Shown in pieces: positions 25,630-37,508 of a stretch of 64,000 nucleotides of DNA. Positions within the stretch are counted from its first letter, which is position 1. Every line of letters starts with the position of its first letter. This DNA is from Pectobacterium punjabense (GTDB lineage Bacteria; Pseudomonadota; Gammaproteobacteria; Enterobacterales; Enterobacteriaceae). Both the position numbers and the translations under genes were made by a program. Location: assembly GCF_012427845.1 (NCBI RefSeq), contig NZ_CP038498.1:3844001-3908000 (forward strand), in the 5' to 3' direction. Under the pieces are notes generated by a model, which saw nothing but the letters and a program-made list of their open reading frames with translations, was not told the DNA's origin and searched no databases.

Positions 25630-28092
25630 TCATGGGTTTCCTGTGTTGAGCTGCGGGACGACCGGGACATCGTCGGGAAAAATGAAAGGCTGCTGCGCCA
25701 CACTGAATCCTGTCTCTTGGCTAAAGGCCAGTTCGCCGTAATCGGGATCGTCGATACGTACGCCGTCGCTGTCCTGTATCAGAGAACGCCCTCGGAAGCG
25801 GGCAGCGAATGCGGCGAATCCTTGCGCGCCGTCGCCGCTGTCCACGGCAACGAACCAGACGTTCTGTTCGCCATACGCCCGCAGTTCGCCTTCGGCCTGC
25901 TGGCCTGCGGTCGCAAACGGCTGTAGCCCGGCAGGATTATGGAAGGCGGCATAGCCGTTGCCACCGCGTACGAAGCACCAGACATCTTCAACGATGACGT
26001 CATCCAGCGCGGTTTGTGGCAAATAGAGGTGCGTCCACGGGCGAATATCCTGTTGCAGATCGAACACCATCAGCGCGCGATTACGATGCTGCATCAGGTG
26101 TGGCAAGCACCCGTTGCCCGCCCAGTACGAAGGTCGATGCACGCCGTCAGGACGATCCTCGCCGGGGTGGTTCACCCACAGGCGGGCGGCATAGTGTGTC
26201 CCCAGCCGCACATCCAGCAGATGCTGCTGGTGTCCGGGCTGGCCGGGGTGATGATCGAAAACGGAAGAAAAGGCCACATCCTGCTGCTTCCAGGCGATGA
26301 TGCGGGCGCTACGGTTCAGCCCTTGTACCCAGCGAGCTTCTACACCGTGTGACAGTGACCAGTGTGCAACCCGATCCGTCGTTTCCGGCGGCTGATAGTC
26401 GCTCAGACACAGCAGCGGCAGCGCAGCACAATGAGGTATCAGCCAGCCTTCGCCCCACATCAGCGCACAGAGGCCAGATAGCTCGGTCAACATGCCGGAA
26501 CGCAGCTCTTTATCGTAGGCACGTCCCATGGTGCCAACCGCGACGCCATTCTGATGCACCCACGCCGTCATCAGCATGATGCGGTCAATCACCACGCGAG
26601 ATTTGTCGCGCAGATCGACATCCTGCGCCAGTTCATACAGTGCCACCAGCCCAATCAGATCGATGGGGTAATAGGCCGCCGAGTTCCACTCCACCAGCCC
26701 GTGTTCCAGAATGGAATCAAACCAGCGCGTCAAACGTTCGTGGGCAATCGCCTTTTGCTCCAGACCACGACGGCCGCTACACGGAAAGGTGTCATCAGGG
26801 AAGTTTTGTCCGGCAAGGTATTGCGCGACGTGGAAACACAGGCAGTGGTTCTCACTCCAGAACCACATGGTGTCGTTGCCTGGTTCATCAATCCAGTAGC
26901 GGAAACCGAGAATGGCGCTGCGCACGCGCCGCCAGTCCTGAGGCGGTAACTGTTGCCCCTGATAGCGCTGCCACAGCCAAATCAGCGGCACCAGTTGGAA
27001 ATCCGCGCAGTCTTCACGGCGGCTGATTTTTTGCAGCGCGCTGTTGAGAATCGGCTCAGCGGCATCGCTGCCCTCGCCCGTCGCGACAATCGCCAACAGC
27101 CGTCCGAGGCGCTCAAAACCGTGCAGCGCAGTATGGCGCAACACCGTTTCACGCCGCGCGGCCAGCGTCGGTAACGCAGGCATCGTTTGCGGTGGCAAGC
27201 GCCCAAAGCTCAGGGTACGCGTCAGCGTAATGCCGTTACAGGTCGCGGCACAGACCAGATCGTAGTAGCCGACTAAAACATCAGGCAGATCCACCTGCCA
27301 ACCCAGATTGCCAGCGGGCAGCGTTTGTTTCTGCTGCCATACGGGGACGGATTCGTTGACGTTGCCAATCAGACGGTGCGCCATCGTCACAGATTCCGGC
27401 AGCGGCTGCGTGCTATTCAGCACCAGCACGGGCGGCTGGATCAGGTTATTTTCCAACGTCAGTCCGTTAACCCAGCTATCCAGCGCGGTCAGCTGTACGC
27501 TGAGTGCCGTATCCTCATCAAGCTGCCAGAAGAGTGTGTCTTCCCCCTGATAGCACAGGCTGAATAGATAATCGGTATCACGTTCGCACAGTTCTTCGCT
27601 ATGCACTACCAGCGTGTTCGCCCCCGCTTGCAGCGGCAGCGTGATGTCACAGGTTTGTTCAGTATTACGGGTAAAGGGCGTAAAGCGGGTGACCTGTTCG
27701 CCGTTCAGCCACAGCGTAATGCCGCCGCAGGTGCTGAGGGTAAACGGTGCCGCCTGCGCGCTGTCGCAGTGGATAACACAGCGGGAAAAACGCTGAACGT
27801 GAACCGGACACGGCCAGAAATCACTGAAATTCACACTGCGACTTTCATCGCCTCCGCTCCACATCAGCGGGAAATGAAGGTCTTCGGGTAACGTCACCTC
27901 ACGCTTTGCTTCTTCCTGCAAAAAACGCACGCGGCAGGGTAAAACACCGACATCGACAAAACCATTGATAAAGCGGTAATTCACCTTATCCGCCAGCGTA
28001 TCCGGCTCGGCGAAATAACGTTTTTCCGTCAGCTCGGTAATCAGAAACCGATTAATGACGCCGTTCTTCTTTAATTTCCAACCGATATTCAT
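25630..28092 (-). CDS. Large carbohydrate-active enzyme, putative toroid lyase/hydrolase
   Basis: An 820-residue cytoplasmic protein, first gene of the minus-strand operon. The first 330 or so residues are beta-rich (LSTCGGITLWLNGEQ and similar strands, resembling a PA14-like or galactose-binding jelly roll). About 340-600 is helical with SENHCLCFHVAQYLAGQ (Asn-His near 415) and WNSAAYYPIDLIGL (Tyr near 490), a pattern like the Asn/His/Tyr catalytic set of polysaccharide lyases with a toroid fold. The end is beta-rich again. I do not know a family for it. Absence of a signal peptide and the GH105 partner suggest it cuts an imported oligosaccharide. Confidence 0.6.
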   Translation of the reverse strand: MNIGWKLKKNGVINRFLITELTEKRYFAEPDTLADKVNYRFINGFVDVGVLPCRVRFLQEEAKREVTLPEDLHFPLMWSGGDESRSVNFSDFWPCPVHVQRFSRCVIHCDSAQAAPFTLSTCGGITLWLNGEQVTRFTPFTRNTEQTCDITLPLQAGANTLVVHSEELCERDTDYLFSLCYQGEDTLFWQLDEDTALSVQLTALDSWVNGLTLENNLIQPPVLVLNSTQPLPESVTMAHRLIGNVNESVPVWQQKQTLPAGNLGWQVDLPDVLVGYYDLVCAATCNGITLTRTLSFGRLPPQTMPALPTLAARRETVLRHTALHGFERLGRLLAIVATGEGSDAAEPILNSALQKISRREDCADFQLVPLIWLWQRYQGQQLPPQDWRRVRSAILGFRYWIDEPGNDTMWFWSENHCLCFHVAQYLAGQNFPDDTFPCSGRRGLEQKAIAHERLTRWFDSILEHGLVEWNSAAYYPIDLIGLVALYELAQDVDLRDKSRVVIDRIMLMTAWVHQNGVAVGTMGRAYDKELRSGMLTELSGLCALMWGEGWLIPHCAALPLLCLSDYQPPETTDRVAHWSLSHGVEARWVQGLNRSARIIAWKQQDVAFSSVFDHHPGQPGHQQHLLDVRLGTHYAARLWVNHPGEDRPDGVHRPSYWAGNGCLPHLMQHRNRALMVFDLQQDIRPWTHLYLPQTALDDVIVEDVWCFVRGGNGYAAFHNPAGLQPFATAGQQAEGELRAYGEQNVWFVAVDSGDGAQGFAAFAARFRGRSLIQDSDGVRIDDPDYGELAFSQETGFSVAQQPFIFPDDVPVVPQLNTGNP

Positions 28093-28226
28093 ACGGAATC
28101 CTGTTTACGATTTTGACAAATAAAATAACGAAAACGTATGACTACACTTATTTGCACATTCACTGTGCACACGCCGCCAACATTTAGGGCAACGAGCCAT
28201 TTCCTGCACTATTAACTGGCAATTAT

Positions 28227-28242
28227 AATGCAAATTTGCATT
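28227..28242. promoter_or_regulatory. Operator palindrome 1, likely LacI-family site
   Basis: AATGCAAATTTGCATT, a perfect 16-bp palindrome, extends by one further pair (28226-28243). The same 16 bases recur at 28423. Between them lie a half-site at 28252-28258 and the CRP site. Position between the divergent operons fits the locus repressor. Confidence 0.7.
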
Positions 28243-28307
28243 AAATTTTTATTTGCATTCATTTTTTGACATTTCGCATTAATAAATAAGATTCTCATAT
28301 TTATATA

Positions 28308-28323
28308 TGTGATTAATATCACA
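28308..28323. promoter_or_regulatory. cAMP-CRP site in the divergent promoter
   Basis: TGTGA-N6-TCACA (half-sites 28308-28312 and 28319-28323) is a perfect match to the CRP consensus, centred between the two operator copies. Catabolite control of both arms is expected. Confidence 0.82.
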
Positions 28324-28422
28324 AAAATACTTTATTTAAACCAACATTTAAAATATCTTTAATCTGCCTCACATAAATCAGTCGTGCTTCTGTCCATGAT
28401 TGCATGATGAAAATGACAGATG

Positions 28423-28438
28423 AATGCAAATTTGCATT
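28423..28438. promoter_or_regulatory. Operator palindrome 2, likely LacI-family site
   Basis: Second exact copy of AATGCAAATTTGCATT, 196 bp from copy 1 and about 98 bp before the binding-protein start. Two identical sites allow repression by a loop over the CRP site. Confidence 0.7.
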
Positions 28439-28535
28439 AATTAGGACAGAGAATAAATCACAGGAATAAAAATAACCCCGCAGCCAACGCCAGGGTATTT
28501 CAACCATTAATCAAACCTATGATGTGGAGATGTTT

Positions 28536-29843
28536 ATGATGCGTTCCAATACCGCGTTATTTTTTTCCGCCCTTACGCTGGGATTATTCAGCAGCAGCGC
28601 GTTAGCCGCCAAAACGCAGATAACATTTTTATATAGTGACGACGATCCCGAATTAGTGCATTTCATGGAGCAGAAAGTTAAATCCTTCTCCCAAAGTAAT
28701 GAACGCATTGATGTGAATTTCGTCAGCACGGGTTATAACGCGCTGCAAACACAGTTGCCGATGCAGCTGGCGGCAGGTTTAGGCCCCGATATTGCCAAAA
28801 CCACGCAAATGGGGCTGCTCGGCTATACGCTGGATTTGCGCCCCTATCTGAAAGATCCGGCCGCCTTTGAGAAACGTTACAGCGCAGGCATCGAAAAAAT
28901 CATGCGCGTGAAAGGCGTGCATAAAGCGGATGCGCTGCCGGGCTTTGTCGCGTCCTGGACCGCTGATCTGCCGTTCGTTAACGTGACGCTGTTTGAACAG
29001 GCGGGCGTGCCTCTGCCGCAGCCGGGCTACACGATTGATGATTTGATGAAAGCCTCGAAACTGGTCGCGGAAAAAACCGGCGTGCATATCCCCTTCACCA
29101 TCGACCGTAGCGGCTTCCGTTTCTCCGGCCCAGCCTACTCTTACGGTGCACGTTACGATAAAGACGGGTTGATCAACTTCCCGGACGCCGCGGCGCAGCA
29201 GTGGATTAAAGATCTGAAACGCTGGTCGGATGAAGGCGTGTTCCCGCGTGAAATGTGGGGCGCGGCAGGCGGCGGTCAGTATAAGAGCATGGCGGACGAT
29301 TTCGTGAACGGCAACATCGTGACCTATTTCTCCGGCAACTGGCTGTTGAACCAGTTCAGTAAGCAGATTGGCGACGGCTTTGACTGGAAAGTACTGCCAG
29401 CGCCTTGCAAAGAGAAGTGTATTTCAATGGGCGGTGCGACCTTCATCATGCCGTTCACCACCACCAAACACCCGCAGGAAGTGGCCGAGTTTATGGAGTG
29501 GCTGGGCAGCGAACCGTTGCAGCGTGAGATCGCCGAGCGCTTCAATATCATCGTCGGCGCGGATATTACCGATCTGCACTACCAAACCAAAGATAAACAC
29601 GTGATCGACGGCCTGAATACCGCGCGCGAAGAAATCAAAAAGATCCCGTCTTATGTCTTTGATTGGGAACGTATGGAAAGTCTGGGTGCGAACGAGCTGT
29701 ACCCCATCATCCTGACGCGTTTTACGCAATATCTGAACGATCAAGTGTCGTTTGATGAGTATCTGCGCCTGACATCAAACGATGTGAAGCGCCTCAACGA
29801 AACGATCGCGACCAACCAACAACAGCGGAAAAACGCACCGTGA
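28536..29843 (+). CDS. ABC transporter sugar-binding protein (CUT1)
   Basis: Periplasmic solute-binding protein of about 435 residues (SBP_bac_1 fold). The signal peptide has the core LFFSALTLGLFSSSALA with cleavage before AKTQ. The region PMQLAAGLGPDIAKTTQMGL and FVNGNIVTYFSGNWLL are typical of sugar-binding proteins. ATG 28536 (or 28539) has GGAG upstream; the frame's earlier GTG overlaps that site. It delivers the oligosaccharide to the permeases of the divergent arm. The stop overlaps the next gene by four bases. Confidence 0.88.
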   Translation: MMRSNTALFFSALTLGLFSSSALAAKTQITFLYSDDDPELVHFMEQKVKSFSQSNERIDVNFVSTGYNALQTQLPMQLAAGLGPDIAKTTQMGLLGYTLDLRPYLKDPAAFEKRYSAGIEKIMRVKGVHKADALPGFVASWTADLPFVNVTLFEQAGVPLPQPGYTIDDLMKASKLVAEKTGVHIPFTIDRSGFRFSGPAYSYGARYDKDGLINFPDAAAQQWIKDLKRWSDEGVFPREMWGAAGGGQYKSMADDFVNGNIVTYFSGNWLLNQFSKQIGDGFDWKVLPAPCKEKCISMGGATFIMPFTTTKHPQEVAEFMEWLGSEPLQREIAERFNIIVGADITDLHYQTKDKHVIDGLNTAREEIKKIPSYVFDWERMESLGANELYPIILTRFTQYLNDQVSFDEYLRLTSNDVKRLNETIATNQQQRKNAP

Positions 29844-33151: not shown

Positions 33152-33968
33152 TGTGTCTACGATAGTCGGCATAATCGCACACAAAGCGTAAAAAATTATA
33201 TTAAGGAAAAATTAGGCATCAAAGATGCGAAAAAATCATATATAAAGCCACTACTTCGATAAAGACTTATATCGTGAAAGTATAAAAGTCAGTACCTTCA
33301 CTCATTAAGATTACATTTTCTCCTAGCACGCCATATAACTCTTAGCCACTAGAATTACAAAACATTATAGTGGCTTAAAGGCTGTCCAAAATTCGCCAGC
33401 CAGCCTATTCGCAGTAAGTGGAACAATGTTGGAAAACTGAAGCCACAATTTTTATTCACTATAGCAAAAACCAAGTAAAGTATGATGCTTTATGGAAATA
33501 ACAAGCCCATACCTCACGGGAAACATCTTTTTCTCATTTTTTTCTGTATTAGTGTCAGCTAGTTAACTTAAAAACTCCCTAGAAAAGATTCGGACATGCA
33601 CAACTTACTTAGCTTCTTACTGGTAGATGCTGGTTTTGCAGACTACCTATTTTCGATAATTAGCCTAGTCGTGAACTCACTATTTCTATCTAAAATCGGT
33701 ATTAGATGCATCCATTTACTACATTCAATGGAGAGAACCCCCTTTAACTATTTTGACAAATGGCACCAATTAATATATAAGTTTATTAATAATTTCAGAT
33801 TGAAATAAGAAGCAGGAAAACTCAAGTATATACCCTGTATATATCGCATACCTCCCACCGCCTAGAATTAAAAACCGACTTATAAAAAAACATTAATTTT
33901 TTATAAAAAAATGTTAAAAAAAACAAAATCAACAAGATATATTCGTTTAATTTATAAAATATTATTTT
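33152..33968. other. AT-rich spacer before the RiPP-like cassette
   Basis: No gene is supported. A 70-codon frame at 33596-33808 lacks a ribosome site and a recognisable pattern. Base composition drops sharply from the phosphoesterase gene onward, marking the left border of a transferred block that ends near 37.4 kb. Confidence 0.5.
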
Positions 33969-33984
33969 TGTGACAAGGATCACA
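33969..33984 (+). promoter_or_regulatory. Perfect cAMP-CRP site before the precursor gene
   Basis: TGTGA (33969-33973), six bases, TCACA (33980-33984): an exact consensus. It is centred 94 bp before the precursor ATG, so activation by CRP of the peptide operon is likely. A clear -10 box could not be fixed. Confidence 0.8.
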
Positions 33985-34070
33985 CATTTAAGCAATTATG
34001 CTTAATGTTGTTATTGGATTGTTATTAACTGTTTTGGCGCAAGAGCGCTTAACTAATCAAGGATATTGAT

Positions 34071-34208
34071 ATGAAAAAACTTTCTAAAATTATTAAAGCT
34101 GCCGTTTCTACTGTAAAACCAACTCAAAAAGTTAAAGGTAAGGAACTGTATGCCGGTGGCGAAACTACAGGAAATAGTTCACATTGCCAAGGCGGTGGTG
34201 GCTGGTAA
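34071..34208 (+). CDS. Candidate RiPP precursor peptide (45 residues)
   Basis: A short gene with AAGGA seven bases before ATG. Its product has a Lys-rich amphipathic leader (MKKLSKIIKAAVSTVK, then a basic stretch) and a sharply different end, GGETTGNSSHCQGGGGW (residues 29-45), rich in Gly, Thr, Ser and with one His, one Cys and a terminal Trp. The Gly-Gly pair at 29-30 behind ELYA could be a leader cleavage site. The gene is followed by a perfect hairpin and by genes for a metal-type protein, an exporter and an iron dioxygenase. This is the layout of a ribosomal peptide with later modification. The peptide family is not one I recognise. Confidence 0.72.
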   Translation: MKKLSKIIKAAVSTVKPTQKVKGKELYAGGETTGNSSHCQGGGGW

Positions 34209-34217
34209 TTTAAGCCT

Positions 34218-34237
34218 GGGGAGAGACGTCTCTCCCC
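34218..34237. repeat. 20-bp perfect palindrome between precursor and maturation genes
   Basis: GGGGAGAGAC and its exact reverse complement lie ten bases behind the precursor stop. There is no T-run after it, so it may be an RNA-stabilising or partly terminating hairpin. Such a structure would give more precursor than enzyme mRNA. Confidence 0.7.
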
Positions 34238-34295
34238 AAACTAAGTGTTATCAAGGATGACAAAGTTAAATAGATTTTTTTAATGAGATAAATCA

Positions 34296-34763
34296 ATGCT
34301 GGATAATATTGTAAAAACTCTTCCGCATAGCATGAATGTCAATCTAACTGGCCAGGAACCCAGTTTGGAAGATGCGGTTAATTATATAGACTCCATAGAT
34401 TTTTCCGCACTAAAAAATAAATTATCTCGAAATGATCCACTTATTTCAAGGGTGTGGAGCAATAAAGAATTAATAATGACAGAACAATATTATAAAAATT
34501 TCCTATACTTAAATAAGAAATATAACAAAGAAGTTAAAGTTATTGTCCCTAGCATTGCAATTGATGAATTTTGGCACCATCACATCCTTGATACTCGATC
34601 ATACATTTATGACTGCGATAATATATTTGGATATTATTTTCATCACTACCCATATTTTGGAATGAGAGGTAATGATGATTATAAAAACCTAAAAATTGCG
34701 TTTGAATTAACACAAGAAATTTATGAATTAGAATTTGGTGAAAAAATTGTTGATATTTGGTGA
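34296..34763 (+). CDS. His-rich GRDP-like protein of the peptide cassette
   Basis: A 155-residue soluble protein. The conserved block is IDEFWHHHILDTRSYIYDC (89-107), followed by FGYYFHHYPYFGMRG (111-125). It combines the histidines at 94-96 and 116-117 with Asp 99, Asp 106 and Cys 107, as if to bind a metal. The pattern W-H-x-H-I-L-D-T...Y...D-C and H-H-x-P resembles the glycine-rich-domain-protein-like (GRDP) family, whose bacterial members lack a known reaction. Between precursor and exporter, it is a candidate maturation enzyme. The ribosome site is weak. Confidence 0.6.
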   Translation: MLDNIVKTLPHSMNVNLTGQEPSLEDAVNYIDSIDFSALKNKLSRNDPLISRVWSNKELIMTEQYYKNFLYLNKKYNKEVKVIVPSIAIDEFWHHHILDTRSYIYDCDNIFGYYFHHYPYFGMRGNDDYKNLKIAFELTQEIYELEFGEKIVDIW

Positions 34764-36048
34764 TGGGAAGTATAATAAAAACGTTAAGCTAAAACTTGTT
34801 CCATTTATTACAAGCCGATTAGCACCTTTTATTGGTTTTACACTCATAATAGTTTTAATTTCAAAATTAAATTATCCGGAACTTGGTAAGTTTAGTTACC
34901 TTACCGCAATGTATTCATTACCTGTAGTTTTAATGTCCATGCCACTTGCTATGATAGGGAATATTTCTGTTGAAGAAAAAAACAATGGGAAATCTGGATA
35001 TGATATTTTTTTAAGCGGACTACCAATAGCAATTTTAATGTCATTGCTAGGTTTTATATCTGCCCTTATAATGAAAGACAATATCATTAGCAAAGAGAAT
35101 GAATCCGTAATTACCGCCAGTAAAATTTATATATTTTGCGTCCCACTCCTAATAGCAAACACATATCTATTTTACTTTATTGAAGGGTTCGTAAATAACA
35201 TAGCAATGGCAAAGGTAAAACTAATTACAACCTTCACCAGTTCATTTGTTATTATAAGCATTTCTTTTTATGTTAAAAAACTACTCACATGGCATGTTTT
35301 TTCTGTTTTCTTACTCATAGAAATAATTATATTGATGCTATACACTCATGTTTTGTATAACTATTTTAAAGGAAAATACAAACGACATAAAATTAAAAGC
35401 ATGAAATTTATTTCATCAAAGATCCTTCGTATAGGCTTGCCGGTAGCATTAGGGTTAGCAGGACAAAAACTTGTGTATTTTTTGATTACACAGCGCTTAA
35501 CTAATTTTAATATAGATTTAGTTTCAGATCTATCAATAATAATGAGTATCATAGGGATTATATCGTTACCATTTGGTGCATTTTCGCAGATACACAGTCT
35601 TTTTGTTAGTGAAAGTGATAAGAGGGAACATAAAAAATTTTTCATTAGTGGGGTAAAGTTATCATTTCTTTTCATTATATTAATGATATTTATTACATGG
35701 CTAATTTATCCTTACTTGATAAGACTTTATGGTGCAAATCCTCAGTTGATAGATAACTCATATTTTATAGGTCTCTCTTTTTTATTCGCGACATCTTCTT
35801 TGATGCTTCTATGCATGAGTCACCTGAGAGCATTACAGGATACGTTTTACTCTCAAGCTACAGCTGTAATTATTCTTTTACTAGGTTTTATACCTGCCAT
35901 ATGGCTGTATAAACTTCACAATGGGGAGTTGTATAAAATAATATACACTCAATCCATGTTTACAACTTTAATTATCTTAATTTTAACATTTCGCATACTT
36001 TATTTTAAACAAGAAAATAAAAAGGAATTTTATCATGAAAAAAATTGA
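34747..36048 (+). CDS. MATE/flippase-type exporter, probable peptide exporter
   Basis: A membrane protein of about 433 residues with roughly 12 helices, organised as two halves; the repeated GLPVALGLAGQKL and GANPQLIDNSYFIGLSFLF blocks fit the MATE/polysaccharide flippase superfamily. No ATG exists near the start. GGTGA before TTG 34747/34750 supports a TTG start overlapping the GRDP-like gene; TTG 34735 or GTG 34738 are possible. Export of a modified peptide by a MATE protein rather than an ABC protein is unusual. Confidence 0.72.
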   Translation: MLIFGDGKYNKNVKLKLVPFITSRLAPFIGFTLIIVLISKLNYPELGKFSYLTAMYSLPVVLMSMPLAMIGNISVEEKNNGKSGYDIFLSGLPIAILMSLLGFISALIMKDNIISKENESVITASKIYIFCVPLLIANTYLFYFIEGFVNNIAMAKVKLITTFTSSFVIISISFYVKKLLTWHVFSVFLLIEIIILMLYTHVLYNYFKGKYKRHKIKSMKFISSKILRIGLPVALGLAGQKLVYFLITQRLTNFNIDLVSDLSIIMSIIGIISLPFGAFSQIHSLFVSESDKREHKKFFISGVKLSFLFIILMIFITWLIYPYLIRLYGANPQLIDNSYFIGLSFLFATSSLMLLCMSHLRALQDTFYSQATAVIILLLGFIPAIWLYKLHNGELYKIIYTQSMFTTLIILILTFRILYFKQENKKEFYHEKN

Positions 36049-37213
36049 CTTAAAATCAAAGCCACTGACAAAAGACAATTTAAAAAAGCATACAAGAAAC
36101 ATGACTCAGCCCTGTATATTTTTTAATTTACCATTAAATAAAAAACTAGATTCATGCTCAGTAGAAGATATTCTTTCTTTGAAAGAAAAAAAATTCCTAT
36201 CTAGCATTCATAATGGTTCGTATTGGTCTGATAAACCCCTTTACGCAGAAGTTCAGGGGAGAAATAAAAGATTAGACTTAGAAAGCATGTTTTTAGATAA
36301 TAACGGAGATTATTACGTTACATATTTTCGTTCCACTCGAGACAATCCCACAGGATGGAAAACAATACGAACATGTGGAAATAATGATTTTGACAACTTT
36401 CTAGCAGAAAAAACAGATTTCATGGATTATATGAAAGGAAGTAATCTTCATAATCATTGGGTATCGAATGGTAAAACATTAAGTTTATTACATGCAGATC
36501 CCGTAGATACTCTATTTTTACAGATTAAAGGAGTCAAAACTTTTCGGTTGATACCAGAATCTTATAAAATTGCTCTATTAGCTGATTTTAAACAACCTCA
36601 TAAACTTAAATATAATGTAGAAGAACTTAAAAAAAATGGAAATAGTATAATAGAAATAGATATCCATCCAGGAACCGCCGTTTTTATGCCAGCATGGTGT
36701 TTTCATGAAATAGAAAGCAAAAATGAAGGGTTAAACATTTCATTAACATCTCATTACCTGAGAAAAAGAAAGTTATACGAAATATCTCCATTCCAAATAA
36801 TTAATAAATTCAGAAGATTCTTGTATCCTAAAATTGTCAATAAAAAAAGGATTGAATTTCAACTAAGCAACCTTTCCCCAGAATCAATTCCATTTTTCCC
36901 TTGGTTTTCATCATATGTATATAATAATAACTTCAAATATGATACAACTTTTCAACATAAAAATTTCCTTATCAATAGGGTGAAAGTAAAAATAACCCCT
37001 ATCACTAATGAATTATTGAATTTAATTTTAAATGAAGTTGATGGATATAAAAGCATTTATAGAATTTCAAAAGATAAAGAAATTGAAATTGATAAATTAC
37101 TCAATGTATTCAAACAATTAATTGAGGATGAGTTTATTCAAATACTTTTTGAATCTGATGACAAATATAATTATTTCTATCAAAGCATCGAGCCTAAGAA
37201 TATTTACATATAA
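36035..37213 (+). CDS. JmjC/cupin-type Fe(II)/2-oxoglutarate dioxygenase with PqqD-like C-terminus
   Basis: A 392-residue protein overlapping the exporter by 14 bases; AAGGA precedes the ATG. The cupin core holds the iron triad: His and Asp in LLHADPVDTLFLQ (153 and 155) and His in PAWCFHEIES (224), with Lys in GVKTFRL (168) placed to bind 2-oxoglutarate. The last about 65 residues (310-373) read like a winged helix of the PqqD/RRE type: TPITNELLNLILNEVDGYKS, then spaced helices ending EDEFIQILFE. Such domains bind leader peptides. It probably hydroxylates or otherwise oxidises the precursor core. Distant relatives hydroxylate ribosomal proteins. Confidence 0.72.
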   Translation: MKKIDLKSKPLTKDNLKKHTRNMTQPCIFFNLPLNKKLDSCSVEDILSLKEKKFLSSIHNGSYWSDKPLYAEVQGRNKRLDLESMFLDNNGDYYVTYFRSTRDNPTGWKTIRTCGNNDFDNFLAEKTDFMDYMKGSNLHNHWVSNGKTLSLLHADPVDTLFLQIKGVKTFRLIPESYKIALLADFKQPHKLKYNVEELKKNGNSIIEIDIHPGTAVFMPAWCFHEIESKNEGLNISLTSHYLRKRKLYEISPFQIINKFRRFLYPKIVNKKRIEFQLSNLSPESIPFFPWFSSYVYNNNFKYDTTFQHKNFLINRVKVKITPITNELLNLILNEVDGYKSIYRISKDKEIEIDKLLNVFKQLIEDEFIQILFESDDKYNYFYQSIEPKNIYI

Positions 37214-37493
37214 AATAAATCCAATAAATTAAAATAAGGAAAAAAATATATATGATAAGCATTCGATAAAAATATCGAAAGACATCATTACAATATATTT
37301 GACTTATAAATATAAATCGATGAATAGCTCCGACCTCACAGAAGTCGCTCGGTCAATTGCCATTGGCAGTGGGCACAGCGTTGGTTCCATACAAATATTC
37401 TTATTGTCCCAAAAAGAACGATAACCCTCGCGCTAATATCGACTTACATACTTTTTTACCTATTGCCCCTACCGTCATCGTTAAAAACTGATA
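37214..37493. other. Spacer behind the cassette
   Basis: Mostly AT-rich. A GC-richer patch at 37330-37400 contains a 34-codon frame (37320-37424) without ribosome site. The drop back to chromosomal composition near 37.45 kb marks the right border of the transferred block. Confidence 0.45.
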
Positions 37494-37508
37494 TGTTATA
37501 ATATAACA
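37494..37508. promoter_or_regulatory. Zur box
   Basis: TGTTATAATATAACA, a perfect 15-bp palindrome, matches the enterobacterial Zur operator core (TGTTATANTATAACA). It lies 16 bases before the first ORF of the metal transporter operon. The transporter should be derepressed in zinc shortage. Confidence 0.88.

Follow-up and report, generated by a model that had tools for sequence, protein, structure and literature searches.

Pathways of the PQQ and mycofactocin type, which belong to the ribosomally synthesised and post-translationally modified peptides (RiPPs), have a short C-terminal core and a chemistry that is conserved across taxa. Here we compare such systems with a four-gene cassette in a stretch of 64,000 nucleotides of Pectobacterium punjabense (contig NZ_CP038498.1, positions 3,844,001 to 3,908,000), called the window in the following, whose own numbering is used for all coordinates unless another locus is named. 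The cassette encodes a 45-residue precursor-like peptide, a GRDP-like protein, a MATE-family exporter and a JmjC/cupin protein. Like the PQQ and mycofactocin peptides it has a short conserved C-terminal core, and the C-terminus of its JmjC protein is weakly PqqD-like, but Pfam gave no radical SAM match for the four proteins, and MATE and GRDP proteins are found instead. In our judgement the cassette is probably a RiPP-type pathway, in which the GRDP-like protein modifies the core, the JmjC protein sometimes hydroxylates and the MATE protein exports.

The methanobactin operons (MbnA, MbnB, MbnC and MbnM) are comparable in their layout. According to PMC3621798, they have a small precursor with a Cys close to the C-terminus, followed by an enzyme gene and then a MATE gene. 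The same source reports a MATE exporter, which the cassette also has, in 13 methanobactin operons, and cores with two Cys, or with one Cys in group V. The cassette differs in that it has a GRDP-like protein and no MNIO/DUF692 (MbnB) match in the Pfam scan of the four proteins, in that its core HCQG with one Cys does not provide paired heterocycle/thioamide sites, and in that its island is without a TonB importer. The biphenomycin RiPPs, described with the JmjC hydroxylase BipG in PMC12707348, resemble the cassette in having a JmjC Fe(II)/2-oxoglutarate protein in a peptide pathway. However, no MNIO, radical SAM, HExxH or TldD match was found in the four cassette proteins by Pfam, the cassette precursor is unrelated and its JmjC protein is optional.

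RiPP classes are usually found via known enzymes. Apart from the optional JmjC protein the cassette has none of the usual markers, and mining that starts from enzymes and relies on such markers only could miss it. In literature searches, which left most subscription journals outside their scope, we found no description of the precursor/GRDP/MATE/JmjC set among the titles listed and no match to the core motif. This agrees with an earlier note on the stretch, made from the sequence alone, which knew of no class with this set of genes.

Precursor peptide and shared gene set

The precursor gene is located at 34071..34208 on the forward strand and encodes 45 amino acids with a basic, variable leader. 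Its open reading frame (ORF) is preceded by the Shine-Dalgarno-like AAGGA and ends with the core HCQGGGGW (34182..34205, forward strand). The Pfam scan gave no match for the precursor protein, and the NCBIfam scan had none for the four cassette proteins (0/4). Pseudomonas, Halomonas, Yersinia, Neisseria and others carry relatives of the precursor immediately before their GRDP-like and MATE genes. In all, 15 loci have a small ORF directly in front of GRDP, namely 11 loci of the scan described below, three plasmid loci and the window; one of the 15, L004, is a near-duplicate of L002. The His-Cys pair and a single Cys per core are conserved in 15 of the 15 loci, HCQG and Trp as the last residue each in 14. 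The exception is the precursor of a Delftia metagenome-assembled genome (L013), which ends with HCEGRWPDHT.

Third codon positions of the precursor genes are variable, the core residues hardly so. Over 78 pairs from 13 of the 15 loci (L004 and L013 left out), the ratio of nonsynonymous to synonymous differences (pN/pS) was 0.09 in the core versus 0.63 in the leader, with synonymous sites near saturation. In the precursor alignment the L013 row begins one codon late; a later realignment was made without L013 and L004. The small ORF has a Shine-Dalgarno-like sequence, relatives at 14 further loci and purifying selection on its core, so the block is more than a product of chance. By the same comparisons the 45-residue ORF is a real gene of a family, and the selection on it argues for its translation. 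The earlier note had expected a variable C-terminus behind a conserved leader, and here the opposite was found. With its variable leader and conserved C-terminal core, the peptide has the form of an encoded RiPP precursor.

In a profile search across some 5.8 billion proteins, 75 precursor clusters were identified, 65 of them at E <= 1e-3. HCQG occurs in all 75 clusters, with the word step of the search biased towards HCQGG, and one cluster (P0207) looks spurious. Trp is the last residue in 63 clusters and is followed by one to three residues in eight, and three clusters end with HCQGGGDA and have no Trp, which suggests a greater importance of His, Cys and Gln than of Trp. The Gln-to-Trp spacing is either four residues (51 clusters) or six (21 clusters), and a spacing of five was found in none. 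Named holders of the precursor are Enterobacter ludwigii, Klebsiella (on a plasmid), Dickeya, Serratia, Achromobacter, Pseudomonas, Halomonas and Neisseria. Two Pseudomonas GRDP entries, P0028 and P0030, have predicted starts that look too far upstream, and by eye their additional N-terminal residues correspond to the end of the precursor gene read in another frame.

The genome-wide scan was guided by GRDP and not by the peptide, and resulted in 31 loci. MATE was found beside GRDP in 12 of these, and the precursor in 11 of those 12; in the remaining MATE-bearing locus, L011, no precursor was seen and the GRDP start seems damaged. None of the 19 GRDP loci without a MATE match had a precursor, either by motif or in a less strict scan for small ORFs upstream; two of these loci end 539 bases (L028) and 1,770 bases (L034) past the GRDP match, so that a MATE gene could be missed there. 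GRDP is adjacent to the precursor in all 15 precursor loci, partly by construction as the loci were found via GRDP. Because the precursor occurs in 11 of the 12 MATE-bearing loci and in none of the 19 others, the shared set is precursor-GRDP-MATE, a genetically simple set of three genes. Stand-alone GRDP genes with neither precursor nor MATE were observed in Xenorhabdus (L016 6055-6462 and L023 5992-6399), so GRDP has another context as well.

JmjC is present in only two of the 15 precursor loci, the window and Yersinia thracica (L005), and for this reason we regard it as accessory and not as the defining enzyme. The RiPP-like operon of the earlier note thus stands in its precursor-like peptide, its dedicated neighbours and an exporter that co-occurs elsewhere, but not in its dioxygenase as the defining enzyme. 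A homologue of the small ORF beside a dioxygenase in another genome, on which that note had made its proposal depend, is provided by the Yersinia thracica locus, which has all four genes.

Putative enzymes and exporter, and a proposed order of events

The GRDP-like protein (34296..34763, forward strand, 155 aa) is our proposed core modifying enzyme and the only putative enzyme that is common to all precursor loci. It carries the motifs DEFWHHHILD and FHHYPYFG and belongs to the family by its match to PF07173, with 26.5 bits against the Pfam cut-off of 22.7. The structure model is helical and confident (predicted local distance difference test, pLDDT, 87.9), and a comparison with the PDB gave no significant match. 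Residues that are invariant in 23 aligned sequences include D90, W93, H94, H96, D99, H116 and H117, and these His and Asp residues suggest a putative metal site. We take DUF1399 to be the same family as GRDP, and we know of no biochemical activity for the GRDP domain, plant GRDP proteins included. The cassette protein is similar to the GRDP (DUF1399) proteins of plants and bacteria in matching PF07173 above the cut-off, and differs from them as a short single-domain form beside a precursor. The eight- to ten-residue core is a testable substrate for GRDP, a domain which is also found in plants.

It is conceivable, although we would put it somewhat below an even chance, that GRDP/DUF1399 is a new metal-dependent peptide-modifying family and that the peptides with HCQGGGxW form a new class of RiPPs, which share a single conserved extracellular chemistry and which plasmids, prophages and islands have carried across proteobacteria. 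If so, the plant GRDP proteins would have an unsuspected shared catalytic ancestry.

The MATE-family exporter (34735..36048, forward strand, 437 aa) begins with TTG, the start codon being uncertain. The Pfam scan gave no direct match for the window protein, nor for those of L002, L005, L008 and L013; we consider the third gene of the window a MATE relative because its homologues in L014 and L015 match PF01554 at 5.9e-24 and 6e-19. With a family profile built partly from itself, the window protein scores 1.7e-144. This profile comprises 14 sequences, of which the L008 entry is in the wrong frame (30 stops converted to X); L008 was matched in the right frame. The MATE gene of Neisseria iguanae (L012) is in pieces.

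The JmjC/cupin protein (36035..37213, forward strand, 392 aa) resembles Fe(II)/2-oxoglutarate hydroxylases and matches Cupin_8 with 54.1 bits and JmjC_2 with 29 bits in Pfam. The GRDP-like, exporter and cupin calls of the earlier note are all borne out. Its model (pLDDT 79.5) has a catalytic fold that matches FIH, JMJD5 and JMJD7, which makes a hydroxylase likely. H153 and D155 are invariant in 13 sequences and H224 is found in 12 of the 13, with Leu in P0002; together they form an HxD...H iron triad, presumably the catalytic one by analogy with FIH. The protein shares this fold and motif with FIH, JMJD5 and JMJD7, but it is bacterial, lies in a peptide operon, has an extra C-terminal domain and shows 12-16% identity to these structures among the matches listed.

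This C-terminal domain (residues 296-392; 36920..37213, forward strand) is winged-helix-like and a candidate for leader binding. In the model, strands at 292-296, 310-314 and 319-322 are followed by helices at 326-332, 341-348 and 352-364. Comparing the last 97 residues with a PqqD profile built from ten genomes gave a weak match (35.8% probability, 26 columns) with an hhalign score of 25.5; the highest score among 200 column shuffles was 17.7. As controls, five windows of the catalytic part all scored <11 and GRDP scored 13.1; a sixth window, which overlaps the domain, scored 26.6. The domain thus fits a leader-binding role weakly. Fusions of JmjC with a RiPP recognition element (RRE) have been noted earlier (PMC12710340). 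Among the 12 JmjC clusters of the protein database, further ones carry the names Pectobacterium, Dickeya and Vibrio cholerae, while one cluster may share a contig with a Serratia GRDP.

The last three genes of the cassette overlap, the JmjC gene start overlapping the MATE gene end by 14 bases. The precursor gene is separated from GRDP by an 87-base gap, which contains a stem-loop with a 9 bp stem and a 4 nt loop (34217..34238, forward strand) that beats all 25 within-operon controls. We folded 14 of the 15 precursor loci (L004 left out) and found a hairpin at most about 55 bases from the stop codon of the precursor in all 14. It beats all 25 same-operon control segments in 13 of the 14, and in L013 two of the 25 controls were as good. 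The stems vary in sequence between lineages; the consensus of seven Pseudomonas loci, in which two rows are misaligned, has one pair with a compensatory change. A terminator search at the window hairpin detected no terminator-like site and no T tract after the stem. Since a T tract follows the hairpin by eye in L012 and L013, some of the hairpins may be leaky terminators. Terminator or not, the arrangement would raise the precursor over the enzyme.

In the RiPP-type pathway that we favour, the precursor would be made in excess over the enzymes, with the hairpin after its stop codon protecting or punctuating the message. The GRDP-like protein would modify the C-terminal core HCQGGGxW, most likely at its His/Cys/Gln end, using a metal held by the conserved His/Asp motifs. 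In the enterobacterial/Vibrio form, the JmjC protein with its leader-binding-like C-terminal domain would add a hydroxyl to the peptide. The product would then be exported by the MATE protein, to judge from its family, and the leader would be removed, although no peptidase is part of the set. In the window and in Yersinia, a site described below suggests that CRP-cAMP probably activates the operon.

Possible roles of the product

A core that barely changes points to a single conserved chemistry, such as metal binding, more than to an arms-race toxin. For the same reason we slightly favour such a conserved chemical role over killing or signalling.

Within the RiPP-type pathway, it is tentatively possible that the product is a metallophore or buffers metal, so that the modified HCQGGGxW, exported by MATE, would bind Cu, Zn or Fe outside the cell. 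His-Cys conservation in all 15 loci together with MATE export speaks for this, and so do the methanobactin operons, which likewise join a small precursor containing Cys to enzymes and a MATE pump (PMC3621798). In one locus, Neisseria iguanae L012, a Fur-like box matching 15 of 19 positions (4 mismatches) lies 69 bp before the precursor (5694). However, the best Fur-like match in the other 14 precursor upstream regions has at least 6 mismatches of 19, and no Zur-like match with <3 mismatches of 13 was found before any precursor. The island adjoins an operon that by eye encodes a zinc-type ABC importer, with an exact Zur-like box, GTTATAATATAAC, at 37495-37507 before the operon, but this stretch is also present in congeners without the island, so the proximity may be chance. 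Among the neighbours listed for 18 loci, GRDP and MATE are the only genes that recur across genera; importers do not.

It seems unlikely that the product is an antibacterial, microcin-like peptide with an exporter that also gives self-protection. A precursor, a putative modifying protein and an exporter in one operon would suit this, as would a mobile accessory set carried on Pseudomonas and Halomonas plasmids, beside P2-like phage genes in Yersinia and on the window island. Against it, no immunity gene was recognised among the four genes, and a core that is near-invariant across gamma- and betaproteobacteria is unusual for arms-race toxins.

An extracellular signal peptide would also fit a small near-invariant core, and on the Halomonas plasmid (L003 4062-5619) a LuxR regulator and an acyl-homoserine-lactone synthase are located directly upstream of the cassette. 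Nevertheless we judge a signal quite unlikely, with this kind of neighbour in one of the four annotated records examined and no receptor or sensor kinase recurrent among the neighbours listed. That there is no secreted product, and that the peptide instead serves GRDP or MATE as a small partner or a regulator, agrees with a small basic peptide, a GRDP of unassigned chemistry and a set with no peptidase, but is improbable given conservation only at the extreme C-terminus behind a variable leader, a hairpin arrangement that suits a product made in excess and a JmjC hydroxylase that joins in some loci.

Island, spread and upstream sites

The cassette is part of an AT-rich island of 4.3 kb (33157..37437, no strand assigned), whose edges are the ends of the alignment to congeners with an empty site. 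In two of these (G001 and G002) the flank alignment stops at 33156 and resumes at 37438, in a third (G018) at 33154 and 37439, with 229, 408 and 387 bases between the flanks in G001, G002 and G018, respectively. The four genes overlap or are closely spaced, all on the forward strand, and the G+C content is 0.23-0.36 in 500-base windows wholly inside the island versus 0.51-0.59 in windows of the flanking genes. The AT-rich, same-direction block of the earlier note was found with all ORFs as it described them. The flanks are present in all 25 genomes of the genus, that of the window among them, and the JmjC gene was not found in the 24 other congeneric genomes searched. JmjC was found in one of 98 relatives searched and GRDP, at 1e-20, in one of 392 family genomes.

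The closest GRDP relative is 96% identical and the closest JmjC relative 91%, both apparently, by their locus tags, on one Pectobacterium contig of 210,006 bases; these identities suggest a recent transfer between genera. The cassette is found on plasmids in Pseudomonas and Halomonas, and five Pseudomonas loci have common chromosomal flanks. In Yersinia thracica (L005 538-5414) its neighbours are capsid, terminase and portal genes of P2-like phage type, which suggests that a prophage carries it. Patchy distribution, plasmids, phage neighbourhood and the empty site in congeners show that the set moves horizontally. On a plasmid of Pseudomonas savastanoi pv. phaseolicola 1448A (L004 4887-5566), GRDP is broken into two ORFs, with the precursor and MATE genes still open, and on P. 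amygdali plasmids the GRDP matches are in three pieces.

In one congener, G007 (L079), the intergenic site between these two flanking genes is occupied by another insert of 4.4 kb, which by eye encodes a response-regulator/sensor pair and a TonB-type receptor. In another (G015), the stretch compared shows a match to the right flank alone. Because of these two genomes the site looks like an insertion hotspot.

A perfect CRP-type palindrome, TGTGACAAGGATCACA, is positioned at 33969..33984 on the forward strand, 102 bp before the precursor start. Two exact CRP-type palindromes were found in the 64 kb against 0.04 expected. Yersinia thracica L005 has an exact site at the same distance of 102 bp, and outside this site the two upstream regions are only partly alike. 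None of the 13 other precursor upstream regions (400 bp) contains an exact site, the best having 2 mismatches. The second palindrome of the window is at 28308-28323, in another AT-rich stretch at about 28000-28750.

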